From assembly GCF_008087625.1 (NCBI RefSeq), contig NZ_CP042997.1, positions 2,418,001-2,482,000 on the forward strand: 64,000 nt of DNA, given 5' to 3'. This DNA is from Aquisphaera giovannonii. Lineage in GTDB: Bacteria > Planctomycetota > Planctomycetia > Isosphaerales > Isosphaeraceae. The position numbers were made by a program, and so were the translations under genes. Under the pieces are notes generated by a model, which worked only from the letters and a program-made list of their open reading frames with translations, was not told where the DNA came from and ran no database searches. Shown one piece after another: positions 1 to 32,378 of the stretch (positions are counted from its first letter, which is position 1; every line of letters starts with the position of its first letter).

Positions 1-1859
1 CCGGCCGCAAGACCTTCTACGACGACCGCACCAACGTCTTCTCGCGGGGCCTGTACGAGGAGCAGCGGACGCTCAGGCAGGCCCTCCGGGACGACGACGA
101 GGCGACCTGGAAGCCCACGCTCGACCGCCTCAGGGTCAACACCGTGATGATCGACGCCGACGGCGCCCCGGACACGATCCGGCGGCTCTCGCACAGCCCC
201 CGCTGGATCCCCTACTACGACGACGGCCATACCATGCTCTTCGGCCGGGCCGACGCGCCCGAGGCCGAGCGCAAGGCGTTCGAGGATAGCCGGCTCGATG
301 CGCCGCTCCGCGCCTTCCGGATCTCCGCGCCGGTCCCACCCGCGGACCGGCCGCCGACCCCGACGTCGTGGATCGACCGCTACTTCAGGAACCGCCTGCT
401 CGGCCAGGCGGAGCCCCACACGAGCGCGGCCGTCCGCTGGCTCCAGGGGGTCGGCGCCGATCCGGAAGAGGCCGCGACGCCCGACCCCGCGCGATGCCTG
501 CTGGCCGTCCGCGAGGCCCGGAAGGCCCTGGCCAGGAACCCCGACGATTGGGTCGCCTATCGGCTCCTCAACCTCGCCTATCGGCTCCTCGCAGCCCAGG
601 AGACGGCCATCCTCGGCGGGATACCGATGACGGCCGAGAACCTGCCGCGCATCAACATGCTCGTGCCGGATTACTCGCTCCTGGGCCTCCGATATCAGCA
701 GCGGGCCACGGCGCTCAACTATGCCATCCAGACGAGCCCGCCGCCGACGACGGCCGACGAACGCCGGGAACTCAACCAGCTCACCTTCGAGCTCTTCCAG
801 CTCTACGGCCAGGCCGGCTACATCGACCTGGCCCGCGACCGCCTCCAGATGCTCCTGGAGACCAGCCAGCCGGGCGACCTCAGCGAGGACGTCCGAGGCT
901 CCTACGAGAGGCAGCTCGCGGAGCTTTCCGAGCGGGTCCAGCAGATCGAGGAGAACATCCTCAACCTCCAGGTGGAGCGGTCCGCTGGCCCGGTGGAGAA
1001 GGCCATGTACGCGCGAGAGCAGGGGGCCGTCGGCCACGCGATCAGCGAGCTGGAGGAGGCCTACCACCAGAACATGAGCCCGATCGTCGTCAAGCCGATG
1101 CTGGTGGACCTCTACTGCACGACCGGCCAGCCCGACCGCGCGATGGAGCTGATCTCGCTGGCCGCCGGCGACGACCAGACCCTCGGGACGGAGCCCGGCG
1201 ACTCGTACCGGAGGCAGGGGCTCATCTACCTGCTCCTCGGCAACTACGGCTCAGCCGCCTCGTTCTGGCAGGACCGGGCGATCCCGCGGCTCCGCTACGA
1301 GCGGACCTCCCGAGCCCTCATGACCGCCCAGGCCGTGACCCGCGGCGACCTCGCCAACGCGTCCAATGCGGACCTGACCCTCGCCGGCCTCCTCGGCCGT
1401 CAGTCCCTCTGGGACTTCGAGCTGGGGCAGTGCCTGCTGGAATCCGGCGCCCCCGACCGCGCCGCGGAGTCCTACACCCGGTCCCTCACGGTCGAGCCCG
1501 CCTCGCCCTATCGGCCCCTCATGGCCTACTACCTGGAGCAGATGGGGCGGCCCGTGCCCGCGGCCACCAAGGCGACCACGACCCCGGCCGCGCCAGGGTC
1601 GCAATCACCGGCCGCTCCTGACGGCAAGCCCGAGCCACCCAAGCCGGCGGCTGCCGAGCCCGGTGCATCCAAGCCCGCGGACCCGGCGAAGTCGGAGGCG
1701 ACCAAGCCCGCGGAGCCGGCGAAGGTGGACGCGACCAGGCCCGATCCCGCCAAGCCCGCCGAGAACGGGACGACCGAGCCGGCGAAGGCGGAGACCAAGC
1801 CTGGGGGGGGCGACCCCGCCAGGGCGAATCCCGCGGAGCCGGCGAAGCCGAAATCCTGA
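1..1859 (+). CDS. C-terminal part of a large TPR-containing membrane-associated protein (5' truncated)
   Basis: The frame is open from the first complete codon at base 3, so the gene begins before the window; 618 residues are visible. The first ~80 residues (FYDDRTNVFSRGLY, then VNTVMID and WIPYYDDGHTMLFGR) look like the soluble end of the planctomycete multi-membrane-span proteins that resemble family-39 glycosyltransferases. The middle holds helical TPR-like repeats, for example around ARKALARNPDDWVAYRLLN and the closing ESYTRSLTVEP segment. The last ~85 residues are a low-complexity Pro/Ala/Lys tail built from PAKP/PAEPAK units, probably a disordered or envelope-spanning linker. It ends 8 bp from the stop of the convergent next gene. 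The family assignment of the missing N-terminus is inference. Confidence 0.7.
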   Translation, partial: GRKTFYDDRTNVFSRGLYEEQRTLRQALRDDDEATWKPTLDRLRVNTVMIDADGAPDTIRRLSHSPRWIPYYDDGHTMLFGRADAPEAERKAFEDSRLDAPLRAFRISAPVPPADRPPTPTSWIDRYFRNRLLGQAEPHTSAAVRWLQGVGADPEEAATPDPARCLLAVREARKALARNPDDWVAYRLLNLAYRLLAAQETAILGGIPMTAENLPRINMLVPDYSLLGLRYQQRATALNYAIQTSPPPTTADERRELNQLTFELFQLYGQAGYIDLARDRLQMLLETSQPGDLSEDVRGSYERQLAELSERVQQIEENILNLQVERSAGPVEKAMYAREQGAVGHAISELEEAYHQNMSPIVVKPMLVDLYCTTGQPDRAMELISLAAGDDQTLGTEPGDSYRRQGLIYLLLGNYGSAASFWQDRAIPRLRYERTSRALMTAQAVTRGDLANASNADLTLAGLLGRQSLWDFELGQCLLESGAPDRAAESYTRSLTVEPASPYRPLMAYYLEQMGRPVPAATKATTTPAAPGSQSPAAPDGKPEPPKPAAAEPGASKPADPAKSEATKPAEPAKVDATRPDPAKPAENGTTEPAKAETKPGGGDPARANPAEPAKPKS

Positions 1860-1867
1860 CCCGATGC

Positions 1868-25517: not shown

Positions 25518-26543
25518 ATGCCCAGCGACCGCGACCTGTTCACCGAAGAGCAGCAGATGGCCACGATGAGCTTCGGCGAGCACATCGAGGAGCTGCGCGT
25601 CCGGCTCATCCTGGCCCTCATCGGCCTGGCCGTCGGCATCATCATCGCGTTCATCCCGTACATGGACCTGGGCTGGCGGGTCATGAAGAGCATGGAGGCC
25701 CCGGCCAAGGGGGCCCTCGAGCGCTTCTACGCCGACGAATACCGGAAGAAGGCGGAGGCCGCCGAGGCGTCCAAGGAGCTTTCGCCGCCCGTCGAGGCCG
25801 TCATCCCGGCCGATTCGTTCGTCGGCGCCCTGAAGCAGGTCGCCCCCCACATGGACCTCCCCGCGCCGGAGACCCTGGAGGGGAAGACGGTCACGTTCCC
25901 GCTCCGGTACCTCCAGCACCAGGCGATCCGGCTCATCGAGAACGGCGTCGTCCAGATCGACCAGTCGCTCATCTCGCTCGGCCCGCTGGAGACGATCACG
26001 ATCTACTTCATGGTCTGCCTCGTGACGGGGCTGGTGCTCGTCTCGCCGTGGGTCTTCTACCAGGCCTGGGCGTTCGTGGCGGCGGGGCTCTATCGCCACG
26101 AGAGGCACTACGTGAAGAAGTACCTGCCCATCTCGCTGGGCCTCTTCCTGGGCGGCGTCTTCCTCTGCTTCTTCTTCGTGCTGCCGCTGACGTTGCGGTT
26201 CCTGCTGGAGTTCAACGTCTGGCTGGGCGTGGCGCCGACGCTCCGCCTCAGCGAGTGGATGAGCTTCGCCACGGTCCTCCCGCTGGTGTTCGGGATCGCC
26301 TTCCAGACCCCGTTGATCATGCTCTTCCTCGAGCGGATCGGGATCTTCACGGTGGACGACTTCCGGGCCAAGCGGAAGCTTTCCATCCTGGTCATCACGA
26401 TCGCGGCGGCGATCCTCACCCCCGGTCAGGATCCGATCAGCATGCTCTTGCTGGCCGTGCCCATGGTGCTCCTCTATGAACTGGGCATCATCCTGATCGG
26501 CTATGGGAAGGTGGGCGGGAAGGTGCCCGCGAATGTCCCCTGA
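25518..26543 (+). CDS. tatC: Sec-independent protein translocase TatC with enlarged first periplasmic loop
   Basis: A 341-residue protein against ~250 for typical TatC. FGEHIEELRVRL at residues 19-30 is the conserved N-terminal signal-peptide binding motif, and SPWVFYQAWAFVAAGLYRHE is the second signature after TM2. Six spans fit the family, with ILTPGQDPISMLLLAVPM and LYELGIILIGY near the end. The extra length is nearly all at residues ~62-150, between TM1 and TM2, a Lys/Glu-rich periplasmic segment. TatC receives twin-arginine precursors such as the DUF1501 and Gfo/Idh/MocA proteins encoded in this window. tatA/tatB are not seen nearby. An ATG at 25557 is an alternative start. Confidence 0.94.
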   Translation: MPSDRDLFTEEQQMATMSFGEHIEELRVRLILALIGLAVGIIIAFIPYMDLGWRVMKSMEAPAKGALERFYADEYRKKAEAAEASKELSPPVEAVIPADSFVGALKQVAPHMDLPAPETLEGKTVTFPLRYLQHQAIRLIENGVVQIDQSLISLGPLETITIYFMVCLVTGLVLVSPWVFYQAWAFVAAGLYRHERHYVKKYLPISLGLFLGGVFLCFFFVLPLTLRFLLEFNVWLGVAPTLRLSEWMSFATVLPLVFGIAFQTPLIMLFLERIGIFTVDDFRAKRKLSILVITIAAAILTPGQDPISMLLLAVPMVLLYELGIILIGYGKVGGKVPANVP

Positions 26544-26665: not shown

Positions 26666-27985
26666 ATGCCGGCGAGGGACATGGAAGACGTCACGGTGGG
26701 ATTGGTCGGCCTGGGGACCGTCGGGACGGGCGTGGCGAAACTCCTCACGGAGCATGCCGATCGGATCGCCCGCCGGGCCGGAAAGCGAGTCCGCTGGAAG
26801 TGGGCCGCCGTCCGCGACCCGCGGAAGGCGCGCGACGTCTCGCTGGACGGCGTCCGCGTGACGACCGACCCCATGGAGGTCGCACGCGACCCGGAGGTGT
26901 CCATCCTCGTGGAGACGATGGGCGGCATCGATCAGGCCGCCGAGGTCGTCCTCGCCGCGCTGGATTCCGGCAAGCACGTGGTTACGGCCAACAAGGCGAT
27001 GCTCGCGGAGCGGGGCCGCGAGGTCTTCGACCGCGCCCGCCGCGCACACCGGGCCGTCGCCTTCGAGGCGAGCGTCGGCGGGGGCATCCCCATCGTCCAG
27101 GCGATCGGCGTCTCGCTGGCCGCCAACCAGGTGCAGGGCCTCGCCGCCATCCTCAACGGGACGTGCAACTTCATCCTCACCAAGATGACGATGGAGGGCC
27201 TGCCCTACGCCGAGGCCCTCGCGCAGGCCCAGTCCCTCGGCTATGCCGAGGCGGATCCGACGCTGGACGTGGACGGCACGGACACCGCGCATAAGCTCGT
27301 CGTCCTCGCCCAGCTCGCGTTCGGGGCGAACGTCGTCACGAGCGACATCCGGCGCCGCGGGATCGACCGCCTCGACCTCGCGGACCTGACCTACGCGGGG
27401 GAGCTCGGCTACGCGGTCAAGCTTCTGGCCGTCGCCAGGCTCTCGGAGGAAGGTCTCGACCTGCGGGTTGCGCCCACGCTCGTGAAGAAGGGGACGCCTC
27501 TCGCGGAAGTGCGCGGGCCGTACAACGCCGTCCGCGTGGTGGGCGACGCCGTCGGCGACGTCTTCTTCTACGGGCGGGGGGCCGGGATGATGGCCACCGC
27601 CTCGGCCGTGGTCGGCGACCTGATCGACGTCGTCACCGGCCGGGCGCTCATCACCTCCCGGGTCCTCAACCCCTGGGGCGATGCCGACCATCCGGTCGCG
27701 CGGACGCCCTCGAACAGGCTGCGGAGGCGATATTACCTGCGGTTCCACATCGCCGACCGCCCCGGCGTGATCGCGGCCCTCACTCAGGTCCTCGGCGCCC
27801 ACGGCATCAGCATCGCCAGCGTCATCCAGCACGACTCCGGGGACGACGCGCCGGCGGACAGCCCCGTCCCGCTGGTCATCATGACCCACCTCGCCGTCGA
27901 GTTCGAAGTCGAGGCCGCGCTCAAGGAGATCGACCGCCTGGACGTGTCCCACGCACCCAGCGTCCTGCTCGCGGTCGAGGATTGA
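26666..27985 (+). CDS. hom: Homoserine dehydrogenase
   Basis: A 439-residue monofunctional enzyme. VGLVGLGTVGTGVAKLL is the NAD(P)-binding motif, VVTANKAMLAERG carries the catalytic lysine region, EASVGGGIPIVQAI and LNGTCNFILTKM are substrate-domain signatures, and GYAEADPTLDVDGTDTAHKL is the conserved homoserine-binding stretch. A C-terminal ACT domain is visible from YYLRFHIADRPGVIAALTQVL. It reduces aspartate semialdehyde to homoserine in threonine/methionine synthesis; the ACT domain suggests feedback control by an amino acid. apgM follows after 27 bp, almost certainly in one operon. Confidence 0.96.
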   Translation: MPARDMEDVTVGLVGLGTVGTGVAKLLTEHADRIARRAGKRVRWKWAAVRDPRKARDVSLDGVRVTTDPMEVARDPEVSILVETMGGIDQAAEVVLAALDSGKHVVTANKAMLAERGREVFDRARRAHRAVAFEASVGGGIPIVQAIGVSLAANQVQGLAAILNGTCNFILTKMTMEGLPYAEALAQAQSLGYAEADPTLDVDGTDTAHKLVVLAQLAFGANVVTSDIRRRGIDRLDLADLTYAGELGYAVKLLAVARLSEEGLDLRVAPTLVKKGTPLAEVRGPYNAVRVVGDAVGDVFFYGRGAGMMATASAVVGDLIDVVTGRALITSRVLNPWGDADHPVARTPSNRLRRRYYLRFHIADRPGVIAALTQVLGAHGISIASVIQHDSGDDAPADSPVPLVIMTHLAVEFEVEAALKEIDRLDVSHAPSVLLAVED

Positions 27986-28012
27986 GAGACGGCCGCTTGC
28001 GGAGCCCCTCCC

Positions 28013-29245
28013 ATGACCAGGCCCAAGTTCGTGATCGTGATCCCCGACGGGGCCGCCGACGAGCCGACCGAGCTGCTCGGCGGCAAGACGCCCCTCCAGG
28101 CCGCGCACGTGCCGTCGATGGATCGGGTGTCGCGCGAAGGAATCGTCGGGCGGTCGAGGAACGTCCCCGAGCGTTTCCTCCCCGCCAGCGACGTCGCCAC
28201 GCTCAGCCTGTTCGGCTACGACCCGGAGAAGTACTACACGGGCCGGGCGCCGCTCGAGGCGGCAGCGATGGGGATCTCGCTGGGCCCCAACGACTGGGCG
28301 ATCCGCTGCAACCTGATGACGATCCTCGACGGCCGGCTCGCCGACTTCACGGCCGGCCACATCACGAGCGAGGAGGGCAGGCCCCTGATGGAGGCCCTCC
28401 AGGCCGCCCTCGGGCGTCCGAATGTGGAGTTCCACGCGGGGGTCAGCTACCGCAACCTGATGATCTACCGGGGCCAGCCCGGCGAGGCGCGGTTCGACGA
28501 CTCGACGATCTCCGACCCGCCCCACGACCACCCCGACCAGCCGGCCGCCGAGCACCTGCCCCGCGGCGCCGGGGCGGACCTCCTCCGCGAGCTGATGGCC
28601 GCGGCCGGGCCGATCCTGGCCGACCACCCGGTGAATCGCGCGAGGACCGCCGCCGGCAAGAAGCCGGCCAACGCCATCTGGCTCTGGGGCCAGGGCAACG
28701 CCCCGAACGTCCCGCCGTTCGAGCAGGTCCACGGGATCAAGGGGGCGATCATCTCCGCCGTGGACCTCGTCCGCGGCGTCGGCGTGCTCGCCGGCTGGAC
28801 GCGGATCGACGTCCCGACCGCGACCGGCTACCTGGACACCGACTACGCCGCCAAGGGCCGGGCGGCGATCGAGGCCCTGAAGGACCACGACATCGTCTGC
28901 GTCCACGTCGAGGCCCCCGACGAGGCCAGCCACGAGGGCCGCGCCGACGCCAAGGTCGAGGCCATCGAGCGGATCGACCACGACATCGTGAACCCCGTCC
29001 TCGACGCCCTGCGCAAGTACCCCGAGTGGCGGATGGTCATCTCGCCCGACCATTCCACACTCCTGAGGACGAGGGCCCACGACCGCGCCCTCGTCGCCTG
29101 GGCCATGGCCGGCACGAACCTCCCCGCCTCCGGCCTCACCTACGACGAGCTCTCCGCCCGCGACGGCGGCGGCCCCTTCCTGACCCAGGGCTTCCGTCTG
29201 ATGGACCGGTTCCTCGACCTGAAGTGGAGCGGCCGGCCCGATTGA
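28013..29245 (+). CDS. apgM: ApgM-type 2,3-bisphosphoglycerate-independent phosphoglycerate mutase family; possible homoserine kinase
   Basis: A 410-residue alkaline-phosphatase-superfamily protein. FVIVIPDGAADEPTELLGGKTPL is the N-terminal metal site, PASDVATLSLFGYDPEKYYTGRAPLEA holds the phosphorylated Ser position, CVHVEAPDEASHEG and VISPDHST are the C-terminal metal sites. This archaeal-type branch includes phosphoglycerate mutases and a subgroup long proposed as homoserine kinase from its pairing with threonine genes. Here it starts 27 bp after hom with GGAG before the ATG, and no GHMP-type thrB is seen, which favours the kinase reading. Both activities remain possible. Its last ~15 codons are partly repeated at 29475-29517. 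Confidence 0.9.
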   Translation: MTRPKFVIVIPDGAADEPTELLGGKTPLQAAHVPSMDRVSREGIVGRSRNVPERFLPASDVATLSLFGYDPEKYYTGRAPLEAAAMGISLGPNDWAIRCNLMTILDGRLADFTAGHITSEEGRPLMEALQAALGRPNVEFHAGVSYRNLMIYRGQPGEARFDDSTISDPPHDHPDQPAAEHLPRGAGADLLRELMAAAGPILADHPVNRARTAAGKKPANAIWLWGQGNAPNVPPFEQVHGIKGAIISAVDLVRGVGVLAGWTRIDVPTATGYLDTDYAAKGRAAIEALKDHDIVCVHVEAPDEASHEGRADAKVEAIERIDHDIVNPVLDALRKYPEWRMVISPDHSTLLRTRAHDRALVAWAMAGTNLPASGLTYDELSARDGGGPFLTQGFRLMDRFLDLKWSGRPD

Positions 29246-29335
29246 TATGAAGGCCTTGTATTTATGGGTTACCTCAAGCGGATCGCGTACCCACAGGCAT
29301 CGGATTAAGCCTCGATGGACCGACCCGACTCTTGC

Positions 29336-29467
29336 AGGGTGCGTCTTGACGCACCGGATCGGCTCGGCACCGCGAATCGCCCCGGCCGTCTCGCGCGGCG
29401 GGGCACGTCCCCCTCATCCCCGCATCGTCTGCATGACGAGGCGGTCCGGTGCGTCAAGACGCACCCT
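29336..29467. mobile_element. 132-bp MITE-like element with perfect 23-bp terminal inverted repeats
   Basis: Positions 29336-29358 are the exact reverse complement of 29445-29467. Each end is itself close to palindromic around GGTGCGTCTTGACGCACC, so each can form a hairpin. The direct repeat GATGGACCGA occurs on both sides (29314-29323 and 29474-29483), at 12 and 6 bp from the ends, and may be an old target duplication. No coding capacity. It is too short for an IS and looks like a non-autonomous element or a dispersed intergenic repeat. Confidence 0.65.
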
Positions 29468-29474
29468 ACTACTG

Positions 29475-29517
29475 ATGGACCGATTCGTGGACCTGAAATG
29501 GAGCGGCCGGCCGGAAT
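29475..29517 (+). pseudogene. Duplicated fragment of the apgM 3' end
   Basis: The translation MDRFVDLKWSGRPE is nearly identical to the apgM C-terminus MDRFLDLKWSGRPD, and the DNA matches 29201-29245 with only about half a dozen differences. The copy lies 274 bp downstream, just past the TIR element. It is a fragment, not a gene, and marks a local duplication or recombination event. Confidence 0.75.
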
Positions 29518-29594
29518 GATTGAAGTGAGGATGCATCCGTACGATGCGTCTGCGTCCCAACTGACGCATTCTACAGAAGCACAATCTAATATAT

Positions 29595-31697
29595 TCATTC
29601 TTGGTGCGCCTTAGGCTTTCCATCCAGGACGAGCAACTCGATCAGCTTCACGGCCGCATCTGGTGTGGAAGGCTGATTGGCGAGTCTCAGCCCGAACGAT
29701 TCCCGCGAGATCACGATGCTACGCAATATAGCCACAAGGAGCCCACGGCTGCGCATCACCCGAGGCGACAGGTCGTCTACGTCATCGACCTTGAGGAGAT
29801 CCTTGATCGAGAGATCCCTGACTTGCTCCACCATCCTTGCGAGTTTTTCTTGGGTGATCCCATCGCGCGGGAATATTAGCATGTTGAATCTTACGTCATC
29901 CGACGTGGACAGGCCGAAGAAGACCCGCTCGGCCAAGCTGATGAACCGCGCGAACGCGTCATCTTTGTCGAGCGTCTCTTCCCGTCTCGTCGCCGCTCGA
30001 ATCCGGTCTCTGCTGTTGTCTAGAACGACCGTTACGAAATCGCGCTCGACCTCCTTCCACTCCGCTCGTTGGACGAACAACGGGGGCATCGGTGACGGGC
30101 GGCCGAGAATCGCTACGATCGCGTCTTCCTGCATGTGTATAAGTGTTCTGTCGTCAGCGACGGAGAAGCACGGGTTTGTGCCGAGGGACAGCGCCTTGAC
30201 CTTGAAGTAGACTTTGCCCTCGACATGATGCTCCGTAGCGTCAGGCCAGACGGCACGGATGAGGCCGTTCCAGTCGTAGGGTCGTACCGTTCGAAGCATC
30301 AAGGACGCCATGGCAAAGGACCGTAGTTCACGCCTCTCGTCCGGCTTAAGCCCAAATTGCAGCCCGCACGTGACCTGCTCGATCTCATTCAGCATCAGCG
30401 GATGTTCGCCCCAAAATGGGGCGAAGCCCTCTCCAAGTTCCGCCAGGTACGCCCCAATGTCGAAGGTCAACGCCATACAAAGGGCGTCGACACGGGGTCG
30501 CCTGGAGATTTCCGAGGGGCGGCAGGCGAACACGCCCATCGCATTGGTCGGGATGTATGACAGGTCGAACGCGGGAATGGCGCCCGGCCGGGTCTCGGCC
30601 GCGGCGTCGGATGGCGGACTGGCTCGGAGCGGGTTCGGCACCAGCGAGATAACCAGGGCAACCGCCGCGAGGAGGCCGCCTGCCTGCCATCGGTGTGAAC
30701 GCTGGCCCGACCGGTCGAACTCACCACCATTCGATTCCAGCATTTGGATCCTCCTGATCAGGGTTCCCCTCGTCGGCGAGAACGGGCTCACGGGCCACCG
30801 CCTCCTGCCGACATCCTGCTCCAGGGCCATCCGCGCCAGGACGGCCCGGTACACATGCCTCCCTCCCGACACCTCGGCCGCGAGGGCGTCCGCCGCCTGC
30901 TCCTGCGCCATCCGGAGCCGCGAGGCGAGCCAGGCCACCAGCGGGTGATAGGCGTGGAGCGCCTGCGCCAGCCCCGCGACCAGGCCGATGACGTAATCCG
31001 AGCGGCGAATATGAGCCAGTTCGTGCGCGAGCACCGCGCGGAGGTCCGCCACGGGCCAGGCCCGCCAGTCCGCCGGCAGCAGGATGACAGGACGCCGCCA
31101 TCCGGCCGTCGCCGCCGGGATTGCCTCGGGCAGTTCGCGGACCTCGATCGGCACGAGGACCCCCATCGCGGTGCGGAGCGATTCGAGCTCGCCCAGGAAG
31201 CCCTGATCACGCAGGACGGCACCGCGACGACGGCACCGGCGTACCTCGAGCAGGCCGAGTGCCAGCCGCGAGGACCCGATCGCCGCGAGGGTCAGAAGCC
31301 CCCAGGCCGCGATCCTCAAGCCGCCCGCATGGGGAGCGGACGCCTCGCCCACGCGATGCTCGAAGTTCCGGAGGGTCGCCGCGAGCGTTCTCCAGGAGAT
31401 CGCCAGTCCGGGCGGATGCTCGGCGGAGGCTTGCGGCTCGGGCGGGCGACCCGCTGTACTCGCGGCCGGCCCGGGAGTCACCGCCGCCACTGGCACTGCC
31501 GTCAGCCGGATCGCGAGCAGCCCGACGCAGGGTGCACAAGCCGTCAGGCCGAGCGTCAGTCCCAGGGCCGCCGCGGCGACCGACGCACCTGCCGCCGGGC
31601 CTCGACGCGAGGCGAACAGATGGCAGGCCGTGGCCGGAACGAGCAGCGCCGTCACCTGGATTGCGAGCCAGGCCACCGTCTGGGCGAACGTGTTCAT
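29595..31697 (-). CDS. M56 (BlaR1/MecR1-like) membrane zinc metallopeptidase with unrecognised C-terminal domain
   Basis: A 700-residue protein. N-terminal spans (VAWLAIQVTALLVPATA; VAAAALGLTLGLTACAPCVGLLAI) are followed by a further span at ~128-150 and the M56 domain with HELAH at residues 225-229 and a likely third ligand Glu266 (RMAQEQAADALAAE). A span near 340-358 leads to a ~330-residue C-terminal domain (FDLSYIPTNAMGVFACRP to LIELLVLDGKPKAHQE) with no penicillin-binding SxxK/SxN/KTG set that I can see. It overlaps the BlaI-type gene by 4 bp (ATGA). In BlaR1, ligand sensing outside activates the cytoplasmic peptidase, which inactivates BlaI; here the signal is unknown. Confidence 0.88.
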   Translation of the reverse strand: MNTFAQTVAWLAIQVTALLVPATACHLFASRRGPAAGASVAAAALGLTLGLTACAPCVGLLAIRLTAVPVAAVTPGPAASTAGRPPEPQASAEHPPGLAISWRTLAATLRNFEHRVGEASAPHAGGLRIAAWGLLTLAAIGSSRLALGLLEVRRCRRRGAVLRDQGFLGELESLRTAMGVLVPIEVRELPEAIPAATAGWRRPVILLPADWRAWPVADLRAVLAHELAHIRRSDYVIGLVAGLAQALHAYHPLVAWLASRLRMAQEQAADALAAEVSGGRHVYRAVLARMALEQDVGRRRWPVSPFSPTRGTLIRRIQMLESNGGEFDRSGQRSHRWQAGGLLAAVALVISLVPNPLRASPPSDAAAETRPGAIPAFDLSYIPTNAMGVFACRPSEISRRPRVDALCMALTFDIGAYLAELGEGFAPFWGEHPLMLNEIEQVTCGLQFGLKPDERRELRSFAMASLMLRTVRPYDWNGLIRAVWPDATEHHVEGKVYFKVKALSLGTNPCFSVADDRTLIHMQEDAIVAILGRPSPMPPLFVQRAEWKEVERDFVTVVLDNSRDRIRAATRREETLDKDDAFARFISLAERVFFGLSTSDDVRFNMLIFPRDGITQEKLARMVEQVRDLSIKDLLKVDDVDDLSPRVMRSRGLLVAILRSIVISRESFGLRLANQPSTPDAAVKLIELLVLDGKPKAHQE

Positions 31698-32077
31698 TTC
31701 CCGTCCTCCCGGAGGATCTGCTCCAAAACCCGGCGCTCCTCCTTCGTGAGCTTCCGATGCTCGACCAGCCGGTAGAGCAGGTCCGCCCGGGAGCCGCGGA
31801 ACACCCGGTCGATCAGGTCGCCGAGCAGGCGGCCGGAGACCTCCTCGTGCGTCCTGGCAGCCTTGTAGACGAACGGCCGCTCCTCATTCACCTGCGTGAG
31901 GAACCCCTTTTCCTCGAGTGCCCGCACGAGGTTCGCGATCGTCGGATACGACCGGTCCAGGCCCGCCGCCGCCAGCCGGTCGCGGGCCTCCGCCGCGGTC
32001 ATCGCCTCCATGCCCCAGAAGACGTGCATGACCTCGAGCTCCCGCTCCGTCAGGTCCTTCGCCCGCGGCCTCGCCAT
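31694..32077 (-). CDS. BlaI/MecI/CopY-family transcriptional repressor
   Basis: A 127-residue protein starting MARPRAKDLTERELEVMHVFWG with AAGGAGGAG upstream; the frame is open to 32233 but this start fits the family. The winged helix appears as MTAAEARDRLAAAGLDRSYPTIANLVRALEEKGFL (recognition helix around YPTIANLVRALEEKG), followed by the wing VNEERPFVYKAA and a C-terminal dimerisation helix (RLVEHRKLTKEERRVLEQIL). It is translationally coupled to the M56 gene. By family precedent it binds its own promoter and is inactivated through the M56 partner. Confidence 0.93.
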   Translation of the reverse strand: MARPRAKDLTERELEVMHVFWGMEAMTAAEARDRLAAAGLDRSYPTIANLVRALEEKGFLTQVNEERPFVYKAARTHEEVSGRLLGDLIDRVFRGSRADLLYRLVEHRKLTKEERRVLEQILREDGK

Positions 32078-32121
32078 CGGCGCTCCTCCTTGCTCCGTCT
32101 CGTCACGCCCGATTCGGTTCC

Positions 32122-32151
32122 CCAAATTTGGTTTTCCGAATTTAGCGTCAA
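32122..32151 (-). promoter_or_regulatory. Candidate promoter/operator of the BlaI-M56 operon
   Basis: On the minus strand a TTGACG hexamer (32146-32151) precedes two related 10-mers, CCGAATTTAG (32136-32145, plus-strand reading) and the perfect palindrome CCAAATTTGG (32122-32131). They lie 45-75 bp before the repressor start in an A/T-rich patch. A self-binding repressor would be expected to act here. The -10 box is weak, so the exact promoter is uncertain. Confidence 0.4.
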
Positions 32152-32378
32152 GTCGGCGGGAGTCAAGCGGAACCGGAGAGTCGGCTAGGATTCTTGCCGA
32201 AGAGACATCGTCGTCTTTTGCAGGGTGGGTCAAGCGGAGCGCGGACGCACCGCGACCGGCCCGTCATGTGGAGCAAACAAGGACCATGTCGAACTCCGGC
32301 CTCGCACGCAAGGGGAGCCTGTACCGTCCGCGATGACGCGCCGATCCGGTGCTCTACAAATTCACATCCGTTTCGCCG

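Follow-up and report, generated by a model that had tools for sequence, protein, structure and literature searches.

A gene annotated by some models as a cofactor-independent phosphoglycerate mutase (apgM) follows the homoserine dehydrogenase gene hom in Aquisphaera giovannonii. This raises the question of whether its product serves glycolysis or replaces ThrB, the usual homoserine kinase, in threonine synthesis, as a preliminary description of the locus had suggested. We examined the gene in the window (the whole 64,000-nucleotide stretch analysed), in the host genome (10.5 Mb in 3 contigs, completeness 99.94%), in 41 genomes from the same family and in 199 planctomycete genomes drawn evenly across the phylum.

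The hom locus and the family of the downstream gene

In the ORF listing, a 439-aa hom frame (26666-27985, + strand) is followed by a 410-aa apgM-like frame starting with ATG (28013-29245, + strand). The hom product scored 503 bits against the homoserine dehydrogenase model NF004976 (cut-off 205) and contains the Pfam domains NAD_binding_3, Homoserine_dh and a C-terminal ACT. The reported distance of 27 bp between both genes was borne out, the gap (27986-28012, + strand) including a GGAG ahead of the ATG. Upstream of hom lies tatC (25518-26543), and downstream of the apgM-like gene, on the opposite strand, weakly BlaR1-like and weakly BlaI/CopY-like genes occupy 29595-32233. The final 49 nt of the apgM-like gene recur 274 bp downstream (88%; 29198-29520), and these repeats flank a pair of 34-nt inverted arms (29336-29369 and 29434-29467, 91%) containing TGCGTCAAGACGCA, which within the window is confined to these arms. 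This arrangement resembles a small element that has inserted at the end of the gene.

By comparing the 28013-29245 protein with curated models, we found that it passes the cut-off of TIGR02535, "proposed homoserine kinase" (ThrB2; 489.7 bits, cut-off 446.3), and with a slightly higher score that of NF003242, "cofactor-independent phosphoglycerate mutase" (PRK04200; 502.5 bits, cut-off 426), as well as that of TIGR00306 apgM (484 bits, cut-off 320). Since the names of TIGR02535 and NF003242 clash, the name by itself settles nothing. The protein failed the cut-offs of the phosphoglycerate mutase models NF003104 (267.2 vs 489 bits) and NF003160 (142 vs 468 bits). PhpG (NF038358), likewise an apgM-family member and one whose model is named for a transfer that differs from the mutase reaction, was also excluded (201.3 bits, cut-off 545). 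The Pfam matches were PhosphMutase and Metalloenzyme.

A homoserine-kinase function for TIGR02535 was put forward by the TIGRFAM curators, as related in PMC7311316. The same paper states that mutants of BT2402 (Bacteroides) were rescued by threonine, that BT2402 could not make up for the loss of thrB in E. coli, and that among 148 prototrophs GapMind made a low-confidence ThrB call in 29, TIGR02535 being present in 15 of them. A gut-genome study coined ThrB2 from operons and from an occurrence complementary to thrB (PMC9026213), and BT2402 was termed "the alternative homoserine kinase" in a tools paper, which describes its zinc sites as conserved and its calcium sites as non-conserved (PMC9765024). 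Another TIGR02535 protein, Dehre_1608 of Dehalobacter, belongs to a corrinoid operon and was proposed to be an L-threonine kinase (PMC4285132). Moreover, a methanogen tracer study inferred an unknown homoserine kinase (PMC10809761), and an earlier survey pointed to novel homoserine kinases still to be found (PMC5764234). In the open-access literature we found neither an enzyme assay for the TIGR02535 / ThrB2 family nor the planctomycete ThrB2/ThrB pattern reported below.

We then considered gene order, counting hom as adjacent when its match lay on the same strand and ended no more than 450 bp upstream. Among the 80 relatives listed from the protein search, 43 have hom immediately before the gene and 35 have aspartate kinase (whose identity was established in one locus) immediately after it; at least one of them adjoins in 50 and neither in 30. 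In 17 of 36 phylum-sample loci hom is upstream, 8 of these also having aspartate kinase, and the other 19 have neither. At the family level, hom adjacency occurs in 12 of 19 families, the window's own not being counted in the 12. Around a glycolytic-type paralogue used as control (loci of ~6.2 kb each), neither hom nor aspartate kinase adjoined in any of 20 loci. The pairing of hom with the apgM-like gene exceeds chance but is not universal; Tautonia sociabilis, for instance, has no hom match within 4 kb upstream. The gene resembles BT2402 in passing the curated cut-off, in its aspartate/threonine neighbours and in an occurrence complementary to ThrB. However, its usual planctomycete partners are hom before it and, in many relatives, aspartate kinase after it, whereas ThrB2 of Bacteroidetes is reported with thrC and in an asd-hom operon (PMC9026213); we found no thrC beside the gene in the 80 listed relatives or in the 36 phylum-sample loci.

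ThrB and phosphoglycerate mutases in the genome, the family and the phylum

The preliminary description had proposed to look for a conventional thrB and for a second, glycolytic phosphoglycerate mutase, and had named thrB elsewhere without any other phosphoglycerate mutase as the outcome that would speak against a kinase. We found the opposite. No ThrB (TIGR00191) above cut-off occurs in the host genome, the best scores (29.4 and 21.7 bits vs 168.25) belonging to IspE and a galactokinase-like protein, and threonine synthase ThrC is present (286.7 bits, cut-off 167.1). GpmA was found at 431.9 bits (cut-off 305) at 1132-1866 (- strand) of locus L011 on contig C2 (131,698 bp), a small contig apart from the main one, and is the only phosphoglycerate mutase of the genome recognised as glycolytic. 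A long iPGM gave no match at E <= 0.001 in this genome, and the window protein is its one TIGR02535 protein and sole apgM-family member.

Other candidates for the homoserine kinase were rejected. The 4 GHMP matches, among which a hidden ThrB was sought, correspond to IspE, a galactokinase, the sub-cut-off galactokinase-like protein and a beta-RFAP-synthase-family protein. As for a shikimate-kinase-type enzyme, there are 2 SKI matches: the first (149.5 bits) was taken for shikimate kinase on its score and the second is a gluconokinase. APH-type kinases gave 66 matches, mostly short or weak pieces within long frames, and the three best of the 66 were scanned against family models.

The beta-RFAP-synthase-family protein (contig C1, ~7.848 Mb) scored 156 bits (cut-off 113.5); this family belongs to tetrahydromethanopterin synthesis. 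One APH-family protein (L014, 1420-2469, + strand, C1 at ~3.026 Mb) weakly matches NF003558, the model for APH-type homoserine kinase (26.5 bits vs 271). The neighbours of GpmA on C2 (L116; L246-L256) are exosortase, chain-length and carbamoyltransferase genes. Planctomyces sp. SH-PL62 also has an annotated gpmA, on its plasmid pPL62-1, and the gpmA-bearing contigs of relatives measure 97.9, 111.8, 161.4 and 180.6 kb, as opposed to one of 5.5 Mb. Hence gpmA, a central glycolytic gene, may perhaps be plasmid-borne in Isosphaeraceae, with C2 as a putative plasmid.

Of the 41 family genomes, 15 encode a GpmA above cut-off and 25 an apgM of glycolytic type, which is full-length and retains every position of the Arg/Lys set in 24 and is split into two fragments in G231. 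Both never occur together (0/41; p 2.1e-9 for 15 vs 24), and both are missing only from G205 (74% complete); 40/41 thus have exactly one of these two phosphoglycerate mutases. A third, divergent apgM of G228 was kept out of these classes. The distribution of the two enzymes (15 and 25 of 41, no overlap) is a non-orthologous exchange in glycolysis. The ThrB2 type is found in 39/41 genomes, as 36 full-length proteins, one gene in two frames (G234) and two fragments (G223 and G229), and the two genomes that lack it have completeness values of 81% and 64%. At the residue level, all 36 full-length proteins have a signature identical to that of the window protein. The split gene of G234 (G234:C1:3500938-3502530) is either broken or affected by a sequencing error. 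Lineages that swap their glycolytic enzyme yet keep the ThrB2 type are what is expected if the latter has another job, and glycolysis seems to be served without the ThrB2-type protein in this family.

In the phylum sample, TIGR02535 and ThrB were each found above cut-off in 47/199 genomes and never in the same one (0/199; Fisher p 6.7e-7). As genomes share descent, this per-genome p value is too strong and the family-level one is safer: 19 families have TIGR02535 and 19 have ThrB, with none shared (p 0.004; 81 family labels seen). These tallies are restricted to matches above the curated cut-offs, weaker ones being set aside; the overlap is still nil after adding 4 apgM (417-438 bits) and 6 ThrB (137-168 bits) weaker matches. 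Among the 121 listed ThrC-positive genomes (123 tallied), 44 have TIGR02535, 44 have ThrB and 33 have neither, so that ThrB and TIGR02535 do not account for every genome. These 33 may encode divergent members of the two families or yet another homoserine kinase.

Active-site residues, tree and predicted structure

Our reading at the sequence level covered 37 of the 47 TIGR02535 genomes, the window included. We aligned the window protein and 36 other clade members (37 in all) with 21 glycolytic-type proteins, namely 2zkt and 20 paralogues that all match NF003160 (the score being displayed for the first only) and that, in the cases displayed, also match TIGR02535 below cut-off. First, residues D12, S59, R78, R98, R147, D303, D346, H347 and H356 do not vary among the 37 clade and 21 glycolytic-type proteins. 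Ser59 (codon 28187..28189, + strand) is the predicted nucleophile, and in 80 further relatives listed this residue is Ser in 77 and Thr in 3 (L176 among them). H307 is retained in the clade, and Glu prevails at this position among the glycolytic-type proteins (16/21). Second, five basic residues, R112, R113, R116, R225 and K300, occur in 21/21 glycolytic-type proteins and in 0/37 clade members at those positions. In their place the window protein has F112, T113 and H116 (codons within 28346..28360, + strand), W225 (28685..28687, + strand) and E300 (28910..28912, + strand), which lies three residues ahead of the metal-type Asp303. Both W225 and E300 are found in 37/37 clade members, and so is D251 (28763..28765, + strand), where glycolytic-type proteins have P (19), G (1) or A (1). 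Third, W225, D251 and E300 are present in 80/80 of the further relatives listed, including two archaeal and two proteobacterial records.

In the tree, one branch (100/100) parts the ThrB2-type from the glycolytic-type proteins, and the window protein lies inside the ThrB2-type clade. The predicted model of the protein has a mean pLDDT of 95.4, and its closest Foldseek match is 2zkt_B (TM 0.82), followed by Thermoplasma enzymes, long iPGM, phosphopentomutase and alkaline phosphatases; among these structure matches we found no solved structure from within the ThrB2-type clade. The Pfam Metalloenzyme domain, the Foldseek matches and the nucleophile and metal positions place the protein in the alkaline-phosphatase-type metalloenzyme superfamily. 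It shares the fold, the nucleophile and most metal positions with apgM (2zkt, 3idd and 3kd8; NF003104 and NF003160), but differs from the glycolytic enzymes by the replacement of the five basic positions and the gain of D251 and E300. The switched residues would line the pocket.

A predicted homoserine kinase and its possible mechanism

Gene order, family, the lack of ThrB above cut-off, the separate phosphoglycerate mutase, the mutual exclusion with ThrB in the phylum sample and the residue switch, taken together, indicate that the 28013-29245 protein is most likely the homoserine kinase (ThrB2 type) of Aquisphaera giovannonii. The replacement of ThrB by this protein, as first proposed, hence becomes a supported prediction, on which ThrB exclusion, the gene order of relatives and the residue switch concur.

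Could the protein be an ordinary cofactor-independent phosphoglycerate mutase that stands behind hom by chance, the GpmA of the small contig being accessory? It does pass the NF003242 and TIGR00306 cut-offs, its closest solved structures are archaeal phosphoglycerate mutases, and it is the only apgM-family protein of a genome whose GpmA is off the main contig. However, the conserved neighbours belong to the aspartate pathway, the five basic positions invariant in 21/21 glycolytic-type proteins are replaced, and the other phosphoglycerate mutase, exactly one in 40/41 family genomes, would be superfluous. Given the residue switch and the family pattern, we do not prefer this explanation and regard it as distinctly unlikely.

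It is also unlikely that the protein is a partner or regulator of threonine synthesis, or an enzyme using O-phosphohomoserine, with another kinase, for example of the APH family, phosphorylating homoserine. The failed complementation with BT2402 (PMC7311316) and the weak match of L014 to NF003558 (26.5 bits vs 271) are consistent with such a role, but the catalytic set is retained, and the co-occurrence of ThrB and TIGR02535 above cut-off in 0/199 genomes fits replacement better than an accessory function. We consider it highly improbable that the protein phosphorylates a different hydroxy amino acid, for instance L-threonine on the way to corrinoids. This would parallel Dehre_1608, proposed as an L-threonine kinase from its corrinoid operon (PMC4285132), and the chemistry and pocket would be of the same kind; nevertheless, the neighbours are hom here and both hom and aspartate kinase in relatives, and the distribution follows the absence of ThrB.

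For the favoured homoserine kinase, the pathway would proceed from Hom, which provides homoserine, to the ThrB2-type enzyme, which would phosphorylate its side-chain hydroxyl, and to ThrC, encoded elsewhere, which would convert O-phosphohomoserine into threonine. The predicted reaction is that of GHMP-type ThrB (TIGR00191), whose fold is unrelated. It is also that of DvMF_0971 of Desulfovibrio, a shikimate-kinase-like homoserine kinase that likewise replaces ThrB and differs in fold from the window protein (PMC5764234).

By analogy with iPGM and phosphopentomutase, two metal ions bound to D12, D303, H307, D346, H347 and H356 would activate Ser59, which may accept the phosphate of a donor and hand it to homoserine through a phospho-enzyme. 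The change of the five basic residues into F, T, H, W and E, along with D251, could have re-tooled the pocket from phosphoglycerate to a zwitterionic amino acid, whose amino group might be held by E300 and/or D251 and whose carboxylate by the kept Arg 78, 98 and 147. Much more tentatively, O-phosphohomoserine might form independently of ATP: Ser59 would be phosphorylated by PEP or a phosphoester metabolite and homoserine would accept the phosphate, a possibility that we rather doubt. E. coli contains both ATP and PEP, and the failure of BT2402 in this host possibly reflects the need for an unusual donor, the lack of a partner or weak expression. If the ATP-free route were true, threonine synthesis in many Planctomycetota would take its phosphate from central metabolism, and the same source would apply to ThrB2 users among the Bacteroidetes and Firmicutes.

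The missing homoserine kinase is a recognised gap. The homoserine-kinase proposal for this family is already in print, and the window protein is a well-supported additional member; clade proteins named phosphoglycerate mutase are probably misnamed. What is added here is a clean exchange with ThrB in the phylum sample, a glycolysis covered otherwise in the family, and the residues to mutate. Together, the phylum sample, the family pattern and the residue list make the homoserine-kinase proposal directly testable.
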